From positions 1 through 64,000 of the forward strand of contig CAUJIH010000020.1 in the NCBI GenBank assembly GCA_963205275.1: a DNA stretch of 64,000 bases, in the 5' to 3' direction. The position numbers and the translations under genes are program-made. Below the pieces are notes generated by a model that was given only the letters and a program-made list of their open reading frames with translations, did no database searches and was not told the origin of the DNA. Origin of the DNA: Verrucomicrobiota bacterium (lineage in GTDB: Bacteria > Verrucomicrobiota > Verrucomicrobiia > Verrucomicrobiales > DEV007). Of this stretch, positions 23,411 to 41,178 are shown in pieces (positions within the stretch are counted from its first letter, which is position 1; each line of letters begins with the position of its first letter).

Positions 23411-25927
23411 TTAATTCCCAGAGGATCCATCAGTCCTGCTGACTGACTCAACAGCGTCATCACCCGAATCTACCTGAAACTCGAGATTCTTCTCACCCTT
23501 TCGATGGGTTACGGGGATCGTGTCTCCTTCTTTCACTAGTCCGCGAATGATGAGTTCCGCCAGCGGATCTTCGATGTGACGCTCCACCGCACGGCGCATC
23601 GGACGCGCTCCGTAGTTGGGGTCGTAGCCTTCCTCGACTAGGAAGGCCTTCGCATCATCATCTAGCTCGATGTGGATCTGCTTCTCCGCGAGGCGCTTCA
23701 TGACAGCTTTGATCTCAAGTTCCACGATTTGAACAAGATTCTCACGAGTCAAAACGCGGAAGACAATCTTCTCGTCCAAACGGTTGAGGAACTCTGGCTT
23801 GAAGACCTCTTTGGCTCGCTCGAGAATCTTTCCACGCATAGAGTCGTGATTCTCCTCTCCGCTCCCCATCGAGCCGAAGCCGACAGTCACCTGACGTTTG
23901 ATCACATCGGCTCCCACGTTACTGGTAAGGATCACGATGGTATTGCGGAAGTCGATACGCCGTCCCAGTGAATCAGTCACTGTTCCTTCTTCCAGAATCT
24001 GGAGGAGTAGATTCATCACATCCGGATGCGCCTTTTCGACTTCATCAAAAAGCACCACGGAATATGGCTTGCGGCGGACTGCTTCGGAAAGCTGACCACC
24101 TTCCTCGTACCCCACATAGCCGGGAGGCGATCCGATCAGTCGGCTGCTGGAGAACTTCTCCATATATTCCGACATGTCGATCTGGATCAGGGAGTCGGGA
24201 TCGCCGAACATGAACTCTGCCAGATTTCTGGCCAGGAACGACTTTCCGACACCGGTCGGCCCCAGAAAAATGAAGGAACCGATCGGTCGACGGGGATCTT
24301 TCAGGTTGGCGCGGCTGCGCCGAAGCGCTTTGGAGATCGCCGTCACTGCTTCGTCCTGTCCGATCACGCGACCACGCAACTCCTCCTCCATCTTGAGCAG
24401 TTTCTCAGTCTCGCGCTGCTCCATACGCTGGAGCGGGATGCCCGTCCACTTCGCGACAACGGACATGATATCATCTTCATCCACATCGACGATCTTCTCC
24501 TCGTTGGCCGCACGCCAGTTCTCCAGAATTTCTTCCATCTCCTTGCGCTTATTCTTCTCGTTGTCACGCAGAGCAGCGGCATTCTCGAAGTCCTGATCCT
24601 TAATTGCTCCTTCTTTTTCGGCGACGATGCGCTCGATCTCAGCCTCGAGATCTTTGATCTCGGGAGGCCGAGTCATCGAAGAAATCCTAGCACGCGCACC
24701 GGCTTCGTCCAAGATGTCAATGGCTTTGTCCGGTAGGAATCGTCCCGTTAGATAGCGAGAGGAGAGCTTGACGCAGGCGGTGATCGCCGCATCAGAAAAG
24801 CGAGCTTTGTGGTGCGACTCGTATTTTGGGCGCAGGCCCTTCAGAATAAGAATCGTATCGTCAATGCTCGGTTCGTCCACCTTTACTTGCTGGAAACGAC
24901 GCTCCAGCGCGGCGTCCTTCTCGATGAATTTCCTATACTCCTTCAGAGTCGTCGCTCCGATGCACTGGAGTTCTCCACGGCTGAGGGAAGGCTTAATGAT
25001 ATTTGAGGCATCCATCGCTCCCTCGGCGGAGCCAGCTCCGACGATGGTGTGGAGCTCGTCGATGAAGAGAATCACGTTCTTCGCACGCTTGATCTCATCC
25101 ATTACGGCTTTGATTCGCTCCTCAAACTGTCCGCGATATTTAGTCCCAGCGACCATCAGAGCCAGATCGAGCGTGATTACCTTTTTGTCACGCAACAATT
25201 CCGGCACATTGCCAGAGGCAATTTCCTGAGCCAAGCCTTCTGCGATCGCAGTCTTTCCTACTCCGGCTTCTCCGATGAGCACGGGGTTATTCTTCGTGCG
25301 ACGGCACAGAATCTGAATTACGCGCTCGATTTCACCACTGCGTCCGATGACAGGATCGAGTTCTCCGCCGACCGCCAGCTCGGTCAAATCGCGTCCGAAG
25401 GCCTTTAGCGCGGGGGTTTTGCCTTCTTTCCGGCCTCCACTGGCGACTTCTTCGAAATCGGGTTCTTCATCAGAGGGAGCAGGTGCTGTAAAATTCGGAT
25501 CAAGTTCACGTAGAATCTCATTCCGAGCCACGTCGATATCGACGTCGAGATTCTTCAAAACTCGCGCAGCAACGCCATCGCCCTCTCTGAGGAGACCGAG
25601 GAGGATGTGCTCTGTTCCTACGTAGCTATGATTCAGGTTCTTCGCCTCCTTCCCGGCTAGGCTAAGAACTTTTTTCACACGCGGGGTATAGGGAATATTA
25701 CCCGAAATCTTCGCTTCGTGCCCGATGCCGACCTGCTTCTCCACCTCTAGGCGAACTGTCTCCAAGTCGAGATGCATTTTCTTTAACACGCTGACAGCGA
25801 CACCCTGACCGAGCTTGATTAGCCCGAGCAGCAAGTGCTCTGTGCCCACGTAATTGTGGTTAAAGCGGTCTGCTTCTTTGCGGGCCAGCGCCAAGACCTG
25901 TTGCGCTCTGGGAGTGAAATTATTCAT
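23411..25927 (-). CDS. clpC: ClpC-type AAA+ unfoldase
   Basis: An 838-residue Hsp100 protein: two Clp_N repeats at about 1-145 (TPRAQQVLALARKEADRF; TPRVKKVLSLAGKEAKNL) and the first AAA+ domain with Walker A GEAGVGKTAIAEGL and Walker B VILFIDELHTIVGAG. The middle domain has a UVR-like coiled coil (EKEGAIKDQDFENAAALRD). The second AAA+ domain has GPTGVGKSFLARNL and the C-terminal D2-small domain. It unfolds substrates for ClpP and, in Firmicutes, recognises proteins bearing phospho-arginine. Its start overlaps the end of mcsB by 8 bp, so the two are translationally linked. The acidic C-terminal extension DDAVESVSRTDGSSGN is not conserved in the family. Confidence 0.96.
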   Translation of the reverse strand: MNNFTPRAQQVLALARKEADRFNHNYVGTEHLLLGLIKLGQGVAVSVLKKMHLDLETVRLEVEKQVGIGHEAKISGNIPYTPRVKKVLSLAGKEAKNLNHSYVGTEHILLGLLREGDGVAARVLKNLDVDIDVARNEILRELDPNFTAPAPSDEEPDFEEVASGGRKEGKTPALKAFGRDLTELAVGGELDPVIGRSGEIERVIQILCRRTKNNPVLIGEAGVGKTAIAEGLAQEIASGNVPELLRDKKVITLDLALMVAGTKYRGQFEERIKAVMDEIKRAKNVILFIDELHTIVGAGSAEGAMDASNIIKPSLSRGELQCIGATTLKEYRKFIEKDAALERRFQQVKVDEPSIDDTILILKGLRPKYESHHKARFSDAAITACVKLSSRYLTGRFLPDKAIDILDEAGARARISSMTRPPEIKDLEAEIERIVAEKEGAIKDQDFENAAALRDNEKNKRKEMEEILENWRAANEEKIVDVDEDDIMSVVAKWTGIPLQRMEQRETEKLLKMEEELRGRVIGQDEAVTAISKALRRSRANLKDPRRPIGSFIFLGPTGVGKSFLARNLAEFMFGDPDSLIQIDMSEYMEKFSSSRLIGSPPGYVGYEEGGQLSEAVRRKPYSVVLFDEVEKAHPDVMNLLLQILEEGTVTDSLGRRIDFRNTIVILTSNVGADVIKRQVTVGFGSMGSGEENHDSMRGKILERAKEVFKPEFLNRLDEKIVFRVLTRENLVQIVELEIKAVMKRLAEKQIHIELDDDAKAFLVEEGYDPNYGARPMRRAVERHIEDPLAELIIRGLVKEGDTIPVTHRKGEKNLEFQVDSGDDAVESVSRTDGSSGN

Positions 25928-27023
25928 TTTCGTTGTCTCGGTGTTGTATTATACCACGAAAATCGGGAGGTGTCAGCGCTTTCAAGTTTTCTTGAATAAT
26001 CTCCGCCCGCAGAACATCGCGTTCTTCCATTGAGAGCTTGGTACTGGCGGTGATCTGGAGGTGTGCGGGTTGAATCGCCGTGAGAAGTCGAGTGACGATT
26101 CCCCGCGCTTCTGTAGGGAAAACGTTCATATCACAACCGAGACGAATCATCGAGAGATGGGTCAGCGCCTCCTTAGAAGAGACAATATGGGCGTATTTGA
26201 GCACAGCATAAGCTCTCCCGATCTGATCTTGGATCATCGCTGCGTGATCTTCGAGCACCTTTAACCGTGCGTTCTTCTCATTTCGCAGCAGTTGCTCGAT
26301 CACTCGCTCCAAATGGGCGATGATGTCCTCCTCTTTCGCTCCTAGGGTATTTTGATTCGAAATTTGGAACAGATTGGCGAGAGCGTCTGTTCCCTCTCCA
26401 TACTGCCCCCTTACGGCGAGACCGATTTTGCTGGCCCCTTGCATCGTCTGCGTCATCTGATCTGAGAGGAAGAGTCCGGGCAGATGCAGCATGACGGAAG
26501 CACGTAATCCAGTGCCGAGATTCGTAGGGCAGCAGGTGAGATAACCGTAATCCGGATCGAAGGCGTACGGCAGACGCGTCTCGAGTTCGGAGTCTACCTG
26601 ATCGAGTGCACGATAGGCGGTCATCAGTTGCTGGCCGGGCAAGATCGCCTGCATTCGGAGGTGATCTTCCTCGTTGACCATAATGCTGAGCGACTGCTGA
26701 TCATTGATGACCACCGCACATCCCGGTCCCTTCGCAGCGTGCTCACGGCTGATGAGGTGGCGTTCTACTAATACTTGCTTCTCCAAGGCACTGAGCTGCG
26801 TCATTTCTTCCGCGAAGGCTCCGCTCATTTCAGGGATATCCTCGAGCGCAGGGCGGATACACGAGACAACTTGAGCACGGAGTTCTTTCTTCGCCCATCC
26901 GGGAAATGGATAGCCTCTCAAATTGCGAGCCAAGCGAATCCGACTCGAAATCACGATATCGCTTTCCGGACCGCCTCCTTGCATCCACTCGGCCGGCTTA
27001 TTTAACAAATTCGTGATTCGCAT
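25920..27023 (-). CDS. mcsB: Protein arginine kinase McsB
   Basis: A 367-residue guanido-kinase-fold protein that phosphorylates arginine side chains. Diagnostic segments are SSRIRLARNLRGYPFPGW (nucleotide arginines), VNEEDHLRMQ at about 117-124 (acidic substrate site), YLTCCPTNLGTGLRASVMLH at about 161-180 (catalytic-loop Cys) and RGQYGEGTDA at about 206-214. RDVLRA at 335-340 matches the allosteric phospho-arginine-binding motif RDxxRA described for McsB. All key positions appear intact, so an active kinase is likely. Creatine and arginine kinases lack the last motif. It sits between mcsA and clpC, the order known from Firmicutes, but no ctsR is present. Confidence 0.96.
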   Translation of the reverse strand: MRITNLLNKPAEWMQGGGPESDIVISSRIRLARNLRGYPFPGWAKKELRAQVVSCIRPALEDIPEMSGAFAEEMTQLSALEKQVLVERHLISREHAAKGPGCAVVINDQQSLSIMVNEEDHLRMQAILPGQQLMTAYRALDQVDSELETRLPYAFDPDYGYLTCCPTNLGTGLRASVMLHLPGLFLSDQMTQTMQGASKIGLAVRGQYGEGTDALANLFQISNQNTLGAKEEDIIAHLERVIEQLLRNEKNARLKVLEDHAAMIQDQIGRAYAVLKYAHIVSSKEALTHLSMIRLGCDMNVFPTEARGIVTRLLTAIQPAHLQITASTKLSMEERDVLRAEIIQENLKALTPPDFRGIIQHRDNENE

Positions 27024-27090
27024 GATCGCTTCAGTTTTGCCAAGGAGTTATTTGATCTGTAGATAGTCTACACTTCTCGGAAAAATTCGC

Positions 27091-27645
27091 TTAACAGTTT
27101 TTATACGAAGCTTCGACTTTCGAGATCTCATCGCGGAGTCGAGCTGCCTCTTCATAATCCTCACCTTCGACAGACTTAGACAGGGCTTGTCGTAATTCGC
27201 TCAATCGTATTTCCGGATTTTCAATCGCGGCAGGATTCTCCAAGGAAAGCGGGGTCAGCGCTAGAGGCAGATCACAGGGGCGTGGGACTTTACCCTCGTG
27301 TCGGGTTTTCTTTTGAATTGCCTCCAATAGTGGATCGAGTCGATCTCGAAAGACTTGGTAGCAGTTGGCGCAACCGTAGCGACCAGTTTTTTTGGTATCA
27401 GTCAGCGAGAATCCACAGTCAGGACAGATCGGTTCGTCGCGAGTCGCTCCACTGCCGATGATCATCTGCTTGCCCATCCCCTCCAGCATTTCGACCAGTG
27501 CGTAGGCAGTCGGATCCTCAATGCCCTTTTCGCTGGCGCACTGTTTACACAGATTTACCTTCTGAAATTTGTCGCCGACCTTCTGGCTGACAAAAATCGT
27601 CGCTATGCTAATCTTGCAATTGTCGCACTTCATACTCTGATCCAT
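27091..27645 (-). CDS. mcsA: McsA-like zinc-finger activator of McsB
   Basis: A 184-residue protein with four CxxC-type pairs: C7/C10 (MKCDNCK), C33/C36 (LCKQCAS), C74/C77 (ICPDCGFS) and C92/C95 (YGCANCYQ). A C-terminal UVR motif covers about 146-181 (LSELRQALSKSVEGEDYEEA, then ARLRDEISK). This is the exact architecture of McsA, the zinc-binding activator of McsB. The pairs probably bind two zinc ions. The start at 27645 or the Met five codons in (27633) are both possible. It is followed by mcsB after 67 bp and preceded on the same strand by the aminotransferase gene, 61 bp away. Confidence 0.94.
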   Translation of the reverse strand: MDQSMKCDNCKISIATIFVSQKVGDKFQKVNLCKQCASEKGIEDPTAYALVEMLEGMGKQMIIGSGATRDEPICPDCGFSLTDTKKTGRYGCANCYQVFRDRLDPLLEAIQKKTRHEGKVPRPCDLPLALTPLSLENPAAIENPEIRLSELRQALSKSVEGEDYEEAARLRDEISKVEASYKNC

Positions 27646-30406: not shown

Positions 30407-33400
30407 ATGCAGAAATTCTGTTTCCCTCTTTTTCTTTTCGCTTCTCTGATTCTGCCCACTCTGCGGTCAGCGGATTTGCCACTCATTTTTCGCGATGACT
30501 TTACTGCCGGAGCCAAAGAATGGGAGTCCACCGATCCGAAGGCTTGGAAAATCACGGAAATCGACGGCAATCCCGCCTATGAAATTCTCGGGGGTTCACA
30601 GTACGAGCCTCCTTTTCGCAGTCCTTTGAACATCGCCATCCGACGCGATGGGATCGTCGGAGATTTCATTTTCACGGCACGAGTGCGGACAACGCGGGAA
30701 TCCTACGATCACAGGGATATGTGCGTGGTTTTCGGCTATCAGAATCCATCGAATTTCTACTACATCCATCTCGGCCAGCGCACGGACCCTCATGCAAATC
30801 AGATTTTTCTCGTCAATGAAGCTCCTCGAGTGGCGATCTCTGAAAAAACGACTGAAGGAACTCCTTGGGTGACTGGGAAATGGCACGATGTGAAAATCGT
30901 CCGTACCGTCGCCTCCGGTCGAATCGAGGTTTATTTCGACGACATGACGACGCCGACTCACCTTGCCCACGACAAGACGTTTACTTGGGGGCGAGTGGGC
31001 ATCGGCACTTTCGACGACAAGGGAATCTGGGATGATGTGGAGCTGCATGGTGTCGCCGTCGAGCCACCTGCATCGGCCTCTCGGGAAGGCCATCCCTCTT
31101 CCTTGATCTATACCAAGTGGACACCTAACTTTCAGGTGCCTGATCCGGTGGCGATCAGCTTCGATCCCCAAAGTCGCGCCTATGTGACACAGACCCAACG
31201 CCGAAAAGCGAACGATCTCGACATACGCGACAATACCGACTGGATTCCCAATGACCTCAGCTTCGAATCGCCGGATGACAAGCTCGCCTTTTACCGGTCC
31301 AAGTTCACTCCAGAGAATAGTGCCGCCAACGCGCATCGTGTCGAGGACTACAATGGCGACGGCCGGCACGACATACACGATCTGACCGTCTTGAGCGAGC
31401 GTATCTACCGCATTGAGGACACCAACGGCGACGGCACTGCCGATTCGATGAAAATCTATGCCGAACAGCTGAATCATCCGATCGGAGGAGTCGCCGGAGG
31501 CGTGCTCTGGTATGATGGCTCGGTGTACGCCTGTCCAGTGCCAGAGCTGGTCTCCTTCCGCGACAAAGATGGGGATGGAGTAGCAGATGAGAAGAAAGAA
31601 CTAGTCTATGGCTTCGGTGCCCACCTCGCATACGCCGGCCATGACATGCACGGCCTCTTTCTCGGTCCCGATGGGCGAATCTATTGGTCCGTCGGTGACA
31701 AGGGAATACGAGTCAAAACACCCGATGGTCTCGACTACCGATTTCCCCATCAGGGAGGGCTGATGCGCTGCGAACCCGACGGCTCTCAATTCGAGGTCTT
31801 TGCTCACGGCCAGCGAAACATTCAGGAGATTTCCTTTGATCAATACGGAAATTTCTTCGGAGTCGATAACGATGCCGACTTCGCCGGAGAGAAGGAGAGG
31901 CTCGTTTTCATCGAACAATACGGCGATCTCGGCTGGCGTTCGCACTGGCAATACCTGCGCGACGACTACAATCCCTGGGACAGTGAGAAAATGCACGTTC
32001 CGTGGCACGCCGATCAGTCACGTTGGTTCACGCCTACCATTGGCAATTACGAAAACGGCCCGGCAGGTTTTAAGTTCAATCCCGGTACGGCGCTCAGTCC
32101 CGCCTACGAGAATTATTTCTTCCTGACCAGTGCTCCGAATGGGCAACAGTGGGCCTTCCGAATCGAACCTCATGGTGACTCCTGGGCGATGCACAACGAT
32201 CACCAAATCGGTGATGGCATTCCTCTCGTGGGTCTCTGCTTTGCCCCCGATGGAGGGCTTTACTCCGTGGACTGGGGCGGCGGCTATCCCATGAACGAAA
32301 AAGGTGCCGTCTGGCGGATCGATGTCGCGAAGGATCAGGCCCATCCTCTCCGCGCCGAAACCCAGATGCTAATCGAGGCGGATTTTGCTAAAAAGGCTCT
32401 TTCTGAGCTGAGCGTGCTCCTCGGTTACGCCGATCAGCGCGTGCGTCTGAAAGCTCAGCTCGAGCTCGCAAAGCGCTCGGCTATCGATCAACTCCGCTCT
32501 GTCGCCACCTCAGTTGATGCACCTCAAATCGCTCGGATCCACGCCATTTGGGGAATCGGACAGCTTCAGCGCTGGAAGAAAGCCGACGATGCAGAACTGA
32601 CCGCACTCCTAGGCGATCCCGATCCAGAAATCCGCGCTCAAGCGATTCGCACTCTCACCGACAAATATGGGCGGCTGCTGGGTCTGGACAGAATTCCATC
32701 TCCCGATCCCCAGGCACCGGGGCTGACGAAAGCTCTGATCCCACATCTGGAAGACCCATCCCAGCGCGTTCGCATTCAGGCATTGATGGGGCTTGGGCGA
32801 TTGCGCGACCCTCTCGCAACCGAGGCTATTATCGGATTGCTTGCCCGGAAGGAGCATCATCCAGGGATGACCGCCCTTCGCCATGCAGGCACCATGGCTC
32901 TGGCGGGTGCGGCACCTGTCGAAGCGCTCGCCGCCCTCAGCAAAGATAAATCCGTCTTTGTTCGCACCTGCGCGGCCTTAGCTCTGGGACGCCGCGGCGA
33001 CCCTGCCGTGACCGCCTTTCTGGAAGACTCCGACAGTCTGATTTCCGCCGATGCTGCAATCGCCATCCATGATGATTGGATGATCCCCGAAGCGATGCCC
33101 GCTCTGGCGGCACATTTGGGAAAACACCTGGATCGGGGGTCTTTCGTACGACGCGCGATCAATGCGAATTTCCGTATCGGCACGACTGAGGCTGCCGAGC
33201 GCATCGTCAGTTTCGTTGCAGAGGGCAAGGCCGATGAATCCCTGCTGGAAGCCGGTCTGGAGGCTCTGCAAAACTGGGTGAATCCACCGAAACTCGATCT
33301 TGTCACCGGGCAGTTTCGTCCGCTCGAATCGCGTGATCCCGATGTGCTGACGAATGCACTGAAAGCTCACATCGATACTCTGCTCACATCGAAGTCAGCG

Positions 33401-34378
33401 AAAATCGTCTCTGGAGTGATGGAACTGGCGACAAAGGCGGAGCTTCCCATAGCCAATGGGACTCTACTGGCCGTCTTTTCCAATGCAGAGGCAGACGGGG
33501 CGCTGCGGGCCACCGCACTCCACTCCCTCGCCGCGCAAAAGGCATCAGGACTCACTGAGTTAATCTCCGCTGCTGCTGCTGATCCTGCCATTCCTGTGCA
33601 AATCGCCGTTTTGGATCTGCTCTCTGAAACCCAGCCAGACGAGGCCAAACTGGAAATCCAAAAACGGCTCGACGGAAAAGCAGCGACAGCGGTCAAGCAA
33701 CACGCCATCCGCTCACTCGCCCGTGTGAAAGAGGTCGAGCCTATGCGCGAGCTGCTGGCGAAACTTCAGGCAGGAAAGCTCTCTTCCGCCTTGCGACTGG
33801 ACGTGTATGAAGCAGCGCAAGACCCCGCGTTTTCTTCCGATTCGATCATCGTCACAGCCCTCACCGCCATTGAGAAAGAATGGACAAAAGCCGCCGTCAC
33901 GGATCCCGTCGCCCCCTTTCGCTACGCACTGGAGGGAGGAAACTCCGAGCGAGGAAAATCGATCATTCTGAACCATCCTGCCGCACAGTGTGCCGGCTGT
34001 CACAGGATCGACAAAGGGCCGGGAAGCAATGTTGGCCCAATACTGCAGGACATCGGAAAAAAGCGCGACCGCGCCTACATTCTTCAGAGCTTGATCGATC
34101 CGCAGGTTGTTGTTGCGAAGGGTTACGGGAATCTTTCGCTCAGTCTGAACGATGGGACGACCGTCGCTGGTCAGTTCTTGGAAGAGAAAGACGGGAAGGT
34201 GATCCTGAAGGATATTAGCAATAAGCAGACCGAAATCCCTGTCGCAAATATTCGCGACCGTTCTGCGATCATCTCAACCATGCCCCCGATGGGACTGATT
34301 TTAAATAAAGCCGAACTCCGCGACGTGGTCGCATATCTCGCGAGGAAGCCTGCCGACGATCCAAAGAAACAAAAATAG
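30407..34378 (+). CDS. Giant PVC-type secreted protein: LamG-like, sugar-dehydrogenase-like, HEAT and CxxCH domains
   Basis: A 1323-residue protein taken from the ATG at 30407 (a GTG at 30392 adds five residues). A signal peptide is visible (KFCFPLFLFASLILPTLRSA). Residues about 25-215 look like a concanavalin-type DUF1080/LamG domain. About 225-640 is an NHL/soluble-glucose-dehydrogenase-like propeller with EF-hand-like Asp repeats (DYNGDGRHDIHD; DTNGDGTADSM; DKDGDGVADEK). About 660-1080 holds HEAT-type repeats (IRAQAIRTL; VRIQALMGLGRL). At about 1195 CAGCH covalently binds haem c, followed by a cytochrome fold with a possible axial Met in STMPPMGL. This chain of domains is typical of periplasmic PVC proteins. 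A role in oxidation or electron transfer from carbohydrates is inference. Confidence 0.88.
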   Translation: MQKFCFPLFLFASLILPTLRSADLPLIFRDDFTAGAKEWESTDPKAWKITEIDGNPAYEILGGSQYEPPFRSPLNIAIRRDGIVGDFIFTARVRTTRESYDHRDMCVVFGYQNPSNFYYIHLGQRTDPHANQIFLVNEAPRVAISEKTTEGTPWVTGKWHDVKIVRTVASGRIEVYFDDMTTPTHLAHDKTFTWGRVGIGTFDDKGIWDDVELHGVAVEPPASASREGHPSSLIYTKWTPNFQVPDPVAISFDPQSRAYVTQTQRRKANDLDIRDNTDWIPNDLSFESPDDKLAFYRSKFTPENSAANAHRVEDYNGDGRHDIHDLTVLSERIYRIEDTNGDGTADSMKIYAEQLNHPIGGVAGGVLWYDGSVYACPVPELVSFRDKDGDGVADEKKELVYGFGAHLAYAGHDMHGLFLGPDGRIYWSVGDKGIRVKTPDGLDYRFPHQGGLMRCEPDGSQFEVFAHGQRNIQEISFDQYGNFFGVDNDADFAGEKERLVFIEQYGDLGWRSHWQYLRDDYNPWDSEKMHVPWHADQSRWFTPTIGNYENGPAGFKFNPGTALSPAYENYFFLTSAPNGQQWAFRIEPHGDSWAMHNDHQIGDGIPLVGLCFAPDGGLYSVDWGGGYPMNEKGAVWRIDVAKDQAHPLRAETQMLIEADFAKKALSELSVLLGYADQRVRLKAQLELAKRSAIDQLRSVATSVDAPQIARIHAIWGIGQLQRWKKADDAELTALLGDPDPEIRAQAIRTLTDKYGRLLGLDRIPSPDPQAPGLTKALIPHLEDPSQRVRIQALMGLGRLRDPLATEAIIGLLARKEHHPGMTALRHAGTMALAGAAPVEALAALSKDKSVFVRTCAALALGRRGDPAVTAFLEDSDSLISADAAIAIHDDWMIPEAMPALAAHLGKHLDRGSFVRRAINANFRIGTTEAAERIVSFVAEGKADESLLEAGLEALQNWVNPPKLDLVTGQFRPLESRDPDVLTNALKAHIDTLLTSKSAKIVSGVMELATKAELPIANGTLLAVFSNAEADGALRATALHSLAAQKASGLTELISAAAADPAIPVQIAVLDLLSETQPDEAKLEIQKRLDGKAATAVKQHAIRSLARVKEVEPMRELLAKLQAGKLSSALRLDVYEAAQDPAFSSDSIIVTALTAIEKEWTKAAVTDPVAPFRYALEGGNSERGKSIILNHPAAQCAGCHRIDKGPGSNVGPILQDIGKKRDRAYILQSLIDPQVVVAKGYGNLSLSLNDGTTVAGQFLEEKDGKVILKDISNKQTEIPVANIRDRSAIISTMPPMGLILNKAELRDVVAYLARKPADDPKKQK

Positions 34379-34429: not shown

Positions 34430-35053
34430 ATGTCCCTCCTGAATCGCCCTTGGTTTGTCCTCACTCTCCTAGGAATCGTTTTTATTACGTGGAAGAGCTG
34501 TCAGGATGGAGCGGTCGTGGTCCGCACCCCGGAGATGCTGGCTCCTGAACAGCCGCGACAGACGAGCCTCTCTGCGGGAGAGGCTCCGGTCTTTCAAGTG
34601 AAGGATTATCGGATCGAGGCGCAAGCTCGCTATTCCCTGCAGGCTCGCCTCTTAGGGAAAAAGCGCTATCGATTTGATCAAGGAGCAGCCCTTTCTCCTA
34701 TCGATCTTGCTCTGGGTTGGGGACCGATGTCGGCGAATGCGCTGGTGGAGAAACTCGACCTCTCTCAAAGCGGTAGATTTTACTGGGTGCATTGGCCCGA
34801 TTCATCTGTGTCTCGATCAGAGGTGATGGAGAATTCTGCCAATACTCACATTATCCCTGCGACTCCGCACCTTGCCGAAGTAATCGACAAGATGCGTCCA
34901 GGTCAACTGATCGAACTGAAGGGGTATCTAGTGAACGTCAGCCATCCGAACGGCTGGCAGTGGAACTCTTCACTGACGCGTAAGGATACCGGCTCAGGAG
35001 CCTGTGAACTCATTTGGGTCGAATCCGCTCGGATCGTTCTGGCGAATCCGTAG
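34430..35053 (+). CDS. Membrane-anchored protein of unknown function
   Basis: A 207-residue protein with a single hydrophobic segment near the N-terminus (WFVLTLLGIVFITWKSC, about residues 7-23), which makes an uncleaved inner-membrane anchor likely, with the rest outside. A Pro/Gln linker leads to a folded region from about 60 with FQVKDYRIEAQARYSLQARL, LALGWGPMSANALVEKL and VWVESARIVL-like strands. Two elements, the aromatic WVHWPDSS and the PGQLIELKGYLVN, suggest a beta-rich fold. I do not recognise an enzyme. It starts 51 bp after the giant cytochrome-like gene and precedes the epimerase, so it may belong to that transcription unit. Confidence 0.72.
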   Translation: MSLLNRPWFVLTLLGIVFITWKSCQDGAVVVRTPEMLAPEQPRQTSLSAGEAPVFQVKDYRIEAQARYSLQARLLGKKRYRFDQGAALSPIDLALGWGPMSANALVEKLDLSQSGRFYWVHWPDSSVSRSEVMENSANTHIIPATPHLAEVIDKMRPGQLIELKGYLVNVSHPNGWQWNSSLTRKDTGSGACELIWVESARIVLANP

Positions 35054-37979: not shown

Positions 37980-40709
37980 CTATTTTTCGAAAACGATCAT
38001 GGAGTGAATGTCTAGACGTGGAACGACCGTCTTTGTCACTCCGTCGTGGCATTCAATGCCCAGCTCCTTACCTTCTGGCAATAAGGTGACTCGGGCGAAG
38101 TCACCTCGGAGACTGACGGCTATTTCGTGAACAGGTAGAACCTCATCGCGAAACCATCCGAAGCTTTCAGGATTCGGGGCCGCCGATCGGCCAAAGGATG
38201 AGATGTCATTGACCAGATGGATGATCGCCGAATCTCCTTTTTCGAAGCACACCGTCTGCACGGTTAGGGGAGCATTCGTCTCGATTTGCGGGGGAGTTCC
38301 TGCGGCCCACCGAACGGAGCGATCAAGAATGAGGCGCGTGATCGGATGGTTAAAGCTGAAATATGCTCGCCCCATATCACCGGGGAAATACGCGACTCGA
38401 CCTTTCCCCACGCGATGAGTATGCAAGAGGCTGAATTTGTCTCCCAACCCGAGCAGGCTCACAGTCTCAAGCGCTGAATCTGGTAAGGGAACCGTTCGTA
38501 CGATGCCGGCAGGCCGAGTCACATGCGAACGAAACAGCATCAGGTGCGGTTTTCGCTCACGCGCTCCTTGGGTCGTATCGCCGCCCTCTCGAATCGCCGA
38601 TGTGTTCAAAATTTCGTGTTTTTGATTCACTCGAATCTGCCAATCGACGCCATTCGTGGACTGTTTCTGCTCGACTCCGAGCAGAGTCCGGACTGCGGAT
38701 TCCGCACGAGGGAAGCCATTTTCATCCCGACTGCCTGTCTCGTAAGTAATCACCAATCCCCCGCCCATCTCCGCATAGCGAGCGAGAGCCTTTGCTTGCC
38801 TGTCGCCGAGACAGGTGGAATTGGGCAAAATGACGCAGGGATATCGGTCGAGTGTCTCGTTCTTTTCCAGATCATCATCCGTGAGGATGGCGACGGGCAC
38901 ATGCGTCTCCAGCAGGCTCTGGAACATTCCAAATACATTCTCCAAATACGCACGCCTCCCTTGATCACCCAATAAGCCTCCCAGCCTAGCCAAGCTTCGC
39001 TCACTAAAATGAATCGCGGCATAAGGCGTCAAGCTTGCCCCTTTCATCGGCTGCTCACAGGCGGCCACATGGCTCCATATCCGCTTCATCGAATCCCAGT
39101 TCCCTCCGGTGACGACCCCAGGAGCTACTCCGTTCGCGAACATGGAATACGCGAGAGCTTCGTGATTCACATCGGTGTAAATCCCATTGACATGCCACAT
39201 CAGACCGTATCCGGGACTGGTTCGGCAATGGAGAAAAAGATTCTGCCAAGCACTCTGTATCGGCCAGGCGAAGGGGCGCTCAGGAGTTACGCGCCGAGAA
39301 ATTTCCCAGCCCATCTCCTCCAGCAGTCCATTGCCACACTGAGCGGCGCGACTACTGAGATACTCTGTGCCGTCAAACACCCAACCCACTGTCTGATTCC
39401 AGATGCAGGCAATCTCTGGATTCACCGCATTGAGCGCCTCCGTGACATCCAATATGAGCTCCTCTCTCGTCCAAATCTGGAAATCTATCCATCGCTGCCA
39501 AGTTAGATCGCGGGGATCTTCCTTTCGTGGTGGCTCGACTCCGAATTTCTTTTTGAAGGCTGCCACCGTCCAATCAGAATAGTCTCCACCTTTGGGGGCC
39601 GTGAACAGCATATCCACCATGATTCCATCCAATCCTGACTGTTTCGCCACCTGCACCCATCGATCAATATAGGCGGCTCGATACGGGGAATGCCAAGACC
39701 CAAAACCATGCTTGTACACCTTCCCCGAGGCATCCCTCTGACGCCATTCCGGATGATCCAACAACAAAGGATCCAGTGTGCGATGTGACCCATCGTAGAT
39801 CACGACCTTCAACCCCTCTGCATGGCCCGCATCGACGAACTCTTTGACCCAGGAATAATCGTCTCGACGGTACTTATCTGGATACTGAAAGTCTGCCTCG
39901 TCGATTTTGGCAAAGGGGTAAGCCTTCAGTTTTCCATCGAGCGTCCCGGCTGGCATCTCTCCTACCGCAAAGAGACAATTGCCACCTGCCTCGCGCACTT
40001 GCTTGGCCCAAGATTGAGGAGTATTCGCCGGATCCCATTCGAAGTGGCCATAGGCGGCACGCAATCCTTCTTCGATCAGCCAGCGAGGATGATTGCTTAT
40101 CCGTCTGTCGTGCCGAAGTTCGGGCAAGGGCTTGCCCTTTGGTGCCTCCTGCGCTCGACGCACCTGCATCGGAAGATGATCAGCAGGCTCGTAATCCGCC
40201 TTCCTCGTGAGGAAAAAGCAATCGGCCCGCAGTGCGCCTTGCCCGAGGATAAAGGTGTTTTCCCCCTTTTGAAGAGAAATCATTCCGAGCTTTTGCCATC
40301 GGTATGCCTTCTCCCCAGACAGACTTCCTAGCTCGGTCGTCTTTGCCAGCGATGCGCTTTGCAGCTGGGACTCATCCGTGCAATTGGCTCCGAAATGTGC
40401 CTTGGCCGTCCCTGGCACAGCACATCGCAACCATACTTGGTAGTCCCCTGCCTCCACGGTCAGGCGATAGGAGAGCGCCCCTTTTTGAAACAAACCGATC
40501 ACCACGGTGCCACCACTCGCATTGGAATCAGAGATCTTTTCTCCAAAAGACTCGTCGCTGTAAAAAGGGCGTCCCATGTAATCCTCCGCCTCAAAAAAAA
40601 GTCCTCCATCAAACTCGACAGTCGCACTGACGGAGGCCGCCGTTAAGAAACAGGGAAAAAAGAGAAAGAGAGACAATATAAAAAAGAAAGATCGAAGGGA
40701 CAAGTTCAT
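37980..40709 (-). CDS. Secreted glycoside-hydrolase-like protein with CBM-like and beta-galactosidase-type domains
   Basis: A 909-residue protein from the ATG at 40707-40709 (MNLSLRSFFFILSLFLFFPC), with a clear signal peptide ending near TAASVSA. Residues about 30-170 resemble a carbohydrate-binding jelly-roll (FDGGLFFEAEDYMG and DYQVWLRCAVPGTAKAHFG). From about 215 a TIM-barrel region has GGNCLFAVGEMPAG, GLKVVIYDGSHRTLDPLLL and DGIMVDMLFTAPKG. About 590-800 resembles the beta-galactosidase trimerisation-type Rossmann domain (LPNSTCLGDRQAKALARYAE; MGGGLVITYETG). The C-terminal part is beta-rich. Family membership (GH42/GHL-like) is inference and the catalytic acids cannot be assigned with certainty. 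It faces away from the ECF sigma gene. Confidence 0.78.
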   Translation of the reverse strand: MNLSLRSFFFILSLFLFFPCFLTAASVSATVEFDGGLFFEAEDYMGRPFYSDESFGEKISDSNASGGTVVIGLFQKGALSYRLTVEAGDYQVWLRCAVPGTAKAHFGANCTDESQLQSASLAKTTELGSLSGEKAYRWQKLGMISLQKGENTFILGQGALRADCFFLTRKADYEPADHLPMQVRRAQEAPKGKPLPELRHDRRISNHPRWLIEEGLRAAYGHFEWDPANTPQSWAKQVREAGGNCLFAVGEMPAGTLDGKLKAYPFAKIDEADFQYPDKYRRDDYSWVKEFVDAGHAEGLKVVIYDGSHRTLDPLLLDHPEWRQRDASGKVYKHGFGSWHSPYRAAYIDRWVQVAKQSGLDGIMVDMLFTAPKGGDYSDWTVAAFKKKFGVEPPRKEDPRDLTWQRWIDFQIWTREELILDVTEALNAVNPEIACIWNQTVGWVFDGTEYLSSRAAQCGNGLLEEMGWEISRRVTPERPFAWPIQSAWQNLFLHCRTSPGYGLMWHVNGIYTDVNHEALAYSMFANGVAPGVVTGGNWDSMKRIWSHVAACEQPMKGASLTPYAAIHFSERSLARLGGLLGDQGRRAYLENVFGMFQSLLETHVPVAILTDDDLEKNETLDRYPCVILPNSTCLGDRQAKALARYAEMGGGLVITYETGSRDENGFPRAESAVRTLLGVEQKQSTNGVDWQIRVNQKHEILNTSAIREGGDTTQGARERKPHLMLFRSHVTRPAGIVRTVPLPDSALETVSLLGLGDKFSLLHTHRVGKGRVAYFPGDMGRAYFSFNHPITRLILDRSVRWAAGTPPQIETNAPLTVQTVCFEKGDSAIIHLVNDISSFGRSAAPNPESFGWFRDEVLPVHEIAVSLRGDFARVTLLPEGKELGIECHDGVTKTVVPRLDIHSMIVFEK

Positions 40710-41178
40710 CACGAGACACACCTATCCGGCGTTCAGAGAGTCCAGTCTACAACGCAATCGAGGCTTTCAACGACTTACAGGACCCACAGGGGCAGGTGAT
40801 GACTCGCTCGGACAGGTGATTGCCTAACTGTCGAACTCCAGCACCATCACGGCACTAGCGAGCAGCTTCCCAGAGAACTGAAAAGCGGTCTCAAGCGGGA
40901 GCGCTTTCCCTCGTCTGATGACAAGAGCGAGCAACTGTGGCTGCCATTGAAAACGTTGGAATCACTGGAAACACTCGCCTACAAACTTCTCCGCAGTTTT
41001 GTGCTGCGAGACTTATGCAGGGAGGGAGGAAGCGCCTCAAACTTCTGCGATCCTGGGCGAGATGCGCAGTCACGCTGCCGAAAGCCATCCCTCGAAACAT
41101 GCGGATCGCAAACACAGGAATTATCTCGCGTGATCAGGTATTCGTCACAAAATCCACCAGAGCAGATATTGTATCAGT
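40710..41178. other. 469-bp gene-free region between GH-like gene and ECF sigma gene
   Basis: Divergent intergenic region with no supported gene. A short frame at 40937-41182 on the + strand ends in the sigma start and has no recognisable features. It should contain promoters for both flanking genes; I could not place -35/-10 pairs. Confidence 0.4.

Follow-up and report, generated by a model that had tools for sequence, protein, structure and literature searches.

Within the 64,000-nucleotide stretch analysed here (positions 1 to 64,000 of contig CAUJIH010000020.1, assembly GCA_963205275.1, from a Verrucomicrobiota bacterium of the lineage DEV007; hereafter the window), a complete forward-strand gene encodes a single chain of 1323 residues, in which a predicted signal peptide is followed by a concanavalin-like module, a beta-propeller, HEAT repeats and a cytochrome c domain (Table 1). 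The protein belongs to a named family in outline and is new in detail. Specifically, profile searches indicate that its core is of a known kind, the 'PVC-type heme-binding CxxCH protein' (DUF7133 plus TIGR02603), and the new details are a dehydrogenase-like pocket without the clamp for pyrroloquinoline quinone (PQQ), in one chain with an electron carrier and a targeting-like module that has no family model.

Table 1 Features of the gene and its predicted product. Counts refer to the 48-sequence alignment described in the text
Feature	Positions	Strand	Basis
Complete gene, 1323 residues plus stop	30407-34378	+	Open frame, Pfam, NCBIfam
Predicted signal peptide, residues ~1-22	30407-30472	+	By eye: one Lys, hydrophobic core, ...RSA
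N-terminal concanavalin/CBM66-like module, residues 24-220	30476-31066	+	Profile and fold comparisons
Beta-propeller, residues 230-645, PQQ-sugar-dehydrogenase fold, DUF7133	31094-32341	+	Pfam, models, fold matches
First Asp-rich loop DYNGDGRHDIHD, residues 314-325	31346-31381	+	Kept in ~32/48 relatives
Second Asp-rich loop DTNGDGTADSM, residues 338-348	31418-31450	+	Asp338 in 48/48
Third Asp-rich loop DKDGDGVADEK, residues 386-396	31562-31594	+	Asp386 in 47/48
His412, aligned with soluble glucose dehydrogenase His144	31640-31642	+	48/48
Arg470-Asn471, aligned with soluble glucose dehydrogenase Arg228-Asn229	31814-31819	+	48/48
HEAT-repeat helical linker, residues 646-1170	32342-33916	+	Pfam; helical in model
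Cytochrome c domain, TIGR02603, residues 1178-1313	33938-34345	+	NCBIfam; 7ZS0 homology
CAGCH haem-attachment motif, residues 1195-1199	33989-34003	+	Cys, Cys, His 48/48
Beta-strand insert in cytochrome, ~residues 1241-1285	34127-34261	+	Model secondary structure, alignment
Met1292, aligned with 7ZS0 distal haem ligand Met292	34280-34282	+	48/48

Gene, family and distribution

The open frame begins with a Met codon at 30407, its first possible start being a GTG 15 bases upstream, and a frame of this length is expected by chance at this base composition at a level of only about 2e-22. A preliminary description of the locus had proposed a 1323-residue chain at 30407-34378 with four unlike domains; the frame, Pfam, NCBIfam and the structure models agree with it, and the domain search and AlphaFold modelling it had suggested as a check recovered the four domains. 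The protein passes the Pfam cut-offs of DUF7133 (PF23500; 93.5 bits, cut-off 27), HEAT_2 (64, cut-off 27.7), HEAT (36.8, cut-off 23.5) and Cytochrom_C (22.5, cut-off 21.3), as well as the NCBIfam cut-off of TIGR02603 (80.3 bits, cut-off 68.15). TIGR02604 (Piru_Ver_Nterm) scores 115.1 bits, just below its cut-off of 122.2, around which two relatives also lie (P0006, 122.8 bits; P0005, 118.4). With other PVC-type heme-binding CxxCH proteins it thus shares the propeller, the HEAT repeats and the C-terminal CxxCH domain; unlike them, it falls into a subgroup with GHDxHG- and GxRNxQE-like motifs, bears the concanavalin-like N-terminal module and remains under the TIGR02604 cut-off. In the literature searched, no mention of TIGR02603, none of DUF7133 among the 13 papers listed, a lone mention of TIGR02604 and nothing on the function of the family were found.

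At E<=1e-20, DUF7133 has 20 matches in the genome that carries the window and none in the other 58 genomes of the phylum sample; the same genome holds 19 TIGR02603 domains over the cut-off and 23 domains of PF06439 (DUF1080), the family of 3-keto-disaccharide hydrolases. Of the 56 genomes of the lineage, that of the window included, 42 match the whole protein at E<=1e-100. Outside this group, the core has plasmid-borne relatives in Spirosoma oryzicola (36.7%) and Catenovulum adriaticum (28.2%), each matched over 99% of the query, and both retain His412, Arg470-Asn471, the CxxCH motif and Met1292; no homologues of the core were found in phages.

Conservation is expressed below relative to an alignment of 48 sequences (A1: the protein and 47 loci, from 83 frames with propeller and cytochrome), which omits near-copies, cut open reading frames (ORFs), the distant paralogues of the same genome (L130-L147) and a few more loci (L012, L099, L158). 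A wider alignment of 54 rows (A6) includes most of these paralogues. The Pfam scan, which covered 8 of the 18 paralogues, found PF06439 in the ORFs of L139 and L144 (both together with DUF7133) and of L145 (together with Cytochrom_C, its propeller being detected by our own profile only), ThuA in L142, and a GDSL lipase domain in L137 (57.8 bits, cut-off 32.9), with L146 just under that cut-off (29.8). Both L137 and L146 combine the GDSL-lipase-like part with DUF7133 and a Cytochrom_C domain unmatched by TIGR02603, a second type of haem domain in the family.

The propeller and its pocket

The fold of the propeller is seen in two AlphaFold2 models, one of residues 22-645 (pLDDT 83, pTM 0.67) and one of residues 225-1323 (pLDDT 92, pTM 0.85). 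Fold rankings come from a second comparison of Foldseek matches, in which a family that is not listed is not thereby excluded. For the longer model, the best match is 3a9g (Z 31.3, root-mean-square deviation 2.6, 298 residues aligned), followed by 2ism (29.9), 3das (28.9), Asd (28.5) and AA12 (27.4); soluble glucose dehydrogenase (24.2-25.9), HHIP (24.4) and DFPase (about 22.6) rank lower, a lactonase is also among the matches, and the model of residues 22-645 gives the same top order. The models thereby place PQQ-type sugar dehydrogenases as the closest folds, and the dehydrogenase-like propeller expected by the preliminary description is present in them.

Profile comparison points in the same direction, the best match in the Protein Data Bank (PDB) being soluble glucose dehydrogenase (E 1.2e-8). 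The alignment sets a conserved His and an Arg-Asn pair onto His144 and Arg228-Asn229 of that enzyme, which we take to be its catalytic residues; the corresponding His412, Arg470 and Asn471, as well as Glu474, are invariant in all 48 sequences of A1. The Pfam search did not list PF07995 (GSDH) for the protein at E<=1, and two full-length relatives exceed the cut-off of 25 (L215 with 34.9 bits, L024 with 26.3). The propeller further contains the EF-hand-like Asp series DTNGDGTADSM that had been remarked upon earlier, one of three such series (residues 314-325, 338-348 and 386-396); in the second and third, the Asp/Asn places hold Asp or Asn in at least 42 of 48 relatives.

The electron carrier

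The single CxxCH that had been described stands at residue 1195, and shuffled versions of the protein yield one in 7 of 5000 cases. Cys1195, Cys1198, His1199 and Met1292 are each conserved in 48/48, and the C-terminal domain of Kustd1711 from Kuenenia (7ZS0, a diheme cytochrome c; E 7e-13) is a homologue, with Met1292 falling on Met292; in the M292C mutant chain of Kustd1711, a Cys occupies the same alignment column. Both proteins have a C-terminal haem domain with inserted beta strands, a CxxCH and a distal Met. Kustd1711 differs in having two haem domains and a nose and no enzyme-like domain, as far as the accessible text of its description goes (PMC11791136). According to the same text, its haem potentials lie near +350 mV, and the beta-strand 'nose', of Hfq-like fold, is inserted in the C-terminal haem domain (PMC11791136); the model of our protein has beta strands at this place, matched by position and not by fold. 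The genome that carries the window also contains a partial match over the cut-off to ResB, a protein of cytochrome maturation. With both iron ligands invariant and aligned to a solved cytochrome, the earlier suggestion that a c-type haem receives the electrons gains support.

In one distant homologue, present as L054 and L055 (96% identical to each other), an azurin-like domain with the motifs PHN and CTFPGHWQLM, presumably an azurin-type copper site, takes the place of the cytochrome. These chains also carry ThuA, F5/8 type C and DUF7133 domains, HEAT_2 being listed for L054 only. Replacement of haem c by type-1 copper, of which this distant homologue is the sole example found, would be expected of an electron acceptor. 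The copper-domain chains (L055:4501-8211 and L054:1-3576) adjoin a BD-FAE esterase that is fused to the N-terminal module.

The N-terminal module

The N-terminal module is a concanavalin/CBM66-like sandwich. Its closest solved fold is the CBM66 of Bacillus subtilis levanase (4b1m; TM-score 0.75 by target length), which it resembles in fold and not in sequence (14-15% identity), and its profile weakly matches 4azz (E 0.04). The members of the module, 44-78% identical to the copy studied here, form a family of their own with 23 invariant columns across 49 sequences, among them two Arg and several His, Asp and Glu.

A LamG- or DUF1080-like N-terminus had been proposed, and a remote likeness is indeed visible: at E<=1, 5 of the 49 members scanned match PF06439 and 17 match Laminin_G_2. 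The copy studied here, however, matches neither PF06439 nor LamG at E<=1. Cut-offs were compared for the ten members most like PF06439 by our own profile, and no Pfam model exceeds its cut-off for these or for the module of the protein itself. L075 gives the best PF06439 match (25.4 bits, cut-off 26.8, E 1.7e-5), which spans almost the entire profile, and the best of the ten reach 22.3 against 25.6 for TSP_C and 18.6 against 22.9 for Laminin_G_2; NCBIfam, searched with all 49 members, gives at best E 0.0077. Because its matches stay under the cut-off and hhalign of the module against 15 PF06439 sequences is weak (probability 8%), PF06439 was rejected as the identity of the module, which by its sequence is probably a distant cousin of the 3-keto-disaccharide hydrolases, with which it also occurs in tandem (L051, L062, L070).

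The module is found on several unlike partners. Besides the PF06439 tandems, it is fused to a PhoD phosphatase (L035), a sulfatase (L052), BD-FAE esterases (L054, L073, L084 and, by eye, L056) and a weakly DUF4350-like protein (L088), and it stands alone in short frames of about 220-320 codons, mostly in Planctomycetota records. Among Verrucomicrobiota genomes it occurs in 8 of 194 at E<=1e-10, its own genome counted, and no homologues were found on plasmids. In a tree of the core, the module is limited to a single clade, where 21 of 25 rows have it and which includes Blastopirellula marina; a single gain plus three losses would account for the four changes that the tree needs. In the module-less L104, L105 and L109, a signal-peptide-like stretch directly precedes the propeller, L110 being unsure owing to masked letters. 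In the tree of the module, the fused copies do not stand together, and L022 and L024 group with free-standing copies, so that exchange or a second fusion may have occurred. Its patchy presence and its attachment to enzymes of different kinds mark the module as an accessory, most likely for targeting. This is in line with the substrate-binding role first suggested for the N-terminal domain, which is lectin-like.

Two further observations concern the module genes. Sulfatases make up 11 of their 72 adjacent co-directional ORFs, and a link between the two was rejected upon comparison with other nearby ORFs (11/34 of at least 400 residues, all 11 sulfatases being assumed to be so, versus 14/80; Fisher p 0.089). 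L078, on a contig labelled Akkermansia muciniphila, has a module gene that groups with copies from Planctomycetota and other Verrucomicrobiota, and its label or bin may be wrong.

Gene neighbourhoods

No conserved operon was found around the gene, the sole recurring neighbour being cysE, which also lies upstream in L009, L014, L016, L018 and L090, with a fragment in L015; nor was a PF06439 neighbour found for the gene itself. Among relatives, such company is seen more often. Upstream regions were compared at 32 loci, 16 of them of the nearest-paralogue type as assigned by reading the match listing, and a same-strand PF06439 gene lies upstream at 6 of these 16; two loci outside this type (L190, L205) have PF06439 on the opposite strand. 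The Spirosoma relative is preceded by carboxylesterase and alpha/beta hydrolase genes, and the full-length relative in Catenovulum is surrounded by DUF1080, GH16, GH43, GH2, GDSL and xylanase genes, about 5-8 kb from a PQQ-dependent sugar dehydrogenase and a c-type cytochrome. On Catenovulum adriaticum pCadTS8_1 (L216:13689-20913), a more distant CxxCH protein stands in a row, preceded by a sugar-isomerase-like TIM barrel and followed by PF06439, a GMC oxidoreductase, a gluconate-2-dehydrogenase subunit 3, a sulfatase and a GH43 protein, which looks like a complete 3-keto-glycan unit. A comparable pairing has been proposed for the Caulobacter periplasm, where a PF06439 protein would act as 3'-ketolactose hydrolase with the LacABC dehydrogenase, according to the accessible text of Price et al. 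(PMC9007349).

Elsewhere in the window, a 207-residue protein (34430-35053, forward strand), 51 bases downstream of the gene, matches only itself among the loci compared. On the reverse strand lie a 913-residue secreted-looking protein (37980-40721), by eye like large glycoside-hydrolase-like proteins, and, at 23411-27645, genes that resemble, by eye, clpC, mcsB (arginine kinase) and mcsA, a Firmicutes-like company in a Verrucomicrobiota genome.

Interpretation

Taken together, the available data best fit a secreted, glycan-directed oxidoreductase or electron-transfer protein feeding a cytochrome c, a reading to which we give a probability of roughly 0.45; the protein probably aids bacterial attack on complex sugars by oxidation. 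In this model, the concanavalin-like module would dock the protein on carbohydrate, and the propeller would oxidise a sugar unit by means of some cofactor that is not PQQ in the canonical clamp. The HEAT repeats would hold the cytochrome c, with its haem ligands assigned by alignment, which would accept the electrons and hand them to the respiratory chain. The product would most likely be a 3-keto sugar, which PF06439 hydrolases would then cleave, a suggestion that comes from the company kept by homologues and not from the neighbours of the gene itself.

Several observations weigh against this reading. Lys377, Arg406 and Arg408 of soluble glucose dehydrogenase, which presumably hold PQQ, are replaced by Pro577, Pro606 and Val608, and a search for PqqC, whose positive control gave 6 of 288 genomes of the phylum over the cut-off, found it in none of the 56 lineage genomes (completeness of 90% or more in 42). 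PqqE is under the cut-off in the genome itself, and no control genome passed either. Soluble glucose dehydrogenase, moreover, ranks about level with HHIP, a non-enzyme, in the fold comparison, and in A6, with its distant paralogues, the His is kept in 41/54 rows, the Arg in 39/54 and the Asn in 49/54, so that invariance holds for the clade and not for the whole family. In the target clade, PF06439 occurs on the fetched stretch of only 1 of 23 loci (L009-L031, several being short), and the separate GMC dehydrogenase of the pCadTS8_1 row could perform the oxidation there.

With the clamp residues gone and PqqC not found in the lineage, the cofactor of the propeller is not assigned as PQQ. A canonical PQQ-dependent sugar dehydrogenase that scavenges its PQQ, as E. 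coli Asd reportedly does, is quite improbable: the protein shares with soluble glucose dehydrogenase, Asd and AA12 the fold, the catalytic His and the Arg-Asn pair, but it differs from them in its added HEAT repeats and cytochrome, in the PqqC result for its lineage and in lacking the whole Lys/Arg/Arg clamp. Across the 48 clade members, the place of Lys377 holds Lys in 4 and Arg in 7, and Arg is outside the six commonest letters at the place of Arg406. Residue comparison thus suggests a pocket of the sugar-dehydrogenase kind that has been retained and a known PQQ grip that has been lost, in a propeller that would be dehydrogenase-like and not a canonical quinoprotein. The extracellular oxidase of the preliminary description is partly supported: the propeller fold and the two relatives above the GSDH cut-off speak in favour, whereas the missing clamp and the PqqC search speak against it.

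The same loss of the clamp, together with the fold shared with HHIP, would suit an unlikely alternative, in which the protein is an electron-acceptor subunit with a non-catalytic propeller for docking or binding, and its cytochrome is fed by a separate GMC/LacAB-type dehydrogenase, as LacC, presumably a cytochrome, is by LacAB in Caulobacter. The pCadTS8_1 row fits this arrangement, its CxxCH protein standing beside a GMC oxidoreductase and a gluconate-2-dehydrogenase-subunit-3 protein with no other cytochrome among the 18 features listed in an incomplete gene table. However, PF13618 (LacB-like subunits) has no match in the genome of the window, as against matches in 26 of the 56 genomes searched; neither a propeller nor TIGR02603 occurs at any of 30 PF13618 loci (stretches of up to about 3.4 kb); and the occurrence of His412, Arg470 and Asn471 in 48/48 argues for a working pocket.

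Distinctly unlikely is a hydrolase or lyase that attacks glycosides without a cofactor, perhaps depending on Ca2+, and whose cytochrome would serve separately as a sensor or an anchor. The conserved Asp-rich loops would be in keeping with it, as would the hydrolytic activity of other six-bladed propellers (DFPase and lactonase being among the fold matches), but the fold matches sugar dehydrogenases more closely than DFPase, and a C-terminal haem or copper electron carrier would make little sense in such an enzyme. A further argument for hydrolysis comes from Lac161_ORF7, a protein that was produced in E. coli BL21(DE3)pLysS, a strain that carries lacZ. In the accessible text of its description, this reported beta-galactosidase frees glucose from lactose with a Km of 1.8 mM and, by its described domains, has the same TIGR02604, HEAT_2 and TIGR02603 core as our protein, no N-terminal module being reported there (PMC5342196). 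The same text gives induction of the host with isopropyl-thiogalactoside (IPTG) and Km values of 1.8-3.2 mM for three unlike proteins, near the 2.0 it quotes for LacZ (PMC5342196). Given the lacZ-positive host and these values, the Lac161_ORF7 activity may reflect contamination by host LacZ.

Beyond the single protein, the glycan-directed reading extends to two further proposals. Rather unlikely, in our estimate, is the broader one, in which the CxxCH propeller proteins would, as a group, act in the periplasm as glycoside dehydrogenases tied to the respiratory chain, producing 3-keto sugars without canonical PQQ for fused or neighbouring 3-keto hydrolases and using interchangeable haem c or azurin-like copper carriers. 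Very improbable is a module that is itself a diverged 3-keto hydrolase, such that one chain would both oxidise and cleave the glycan; this is set low because the module stays under the PF06439 cut-off (the best member falls short and the copy studied here gives no match), the hhalign result is weak and PF06439 is so rare at the clade loci.

These findings make a vague annotation a testable claim, through a clamp-less pocket with invariant His412 and Arg470-Asn471, the exchange of haem for an azurin-like carrier and the pairing of homologues with 3-keto hydrolases. With partners of six kinds, the N-terminal module furthermore merits a family model of its own. If the broader proposal holds true, the protein would be a version of the CxxCH propeller that is addressed to one glycan by its concanavalin-like module. 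Given the numbers of DUF7133, TIGR02603 and PF06439 matches in a single genome, the DUF7133/CxxCH family may be a main route of complex-glycan breakdown in these bacteria.

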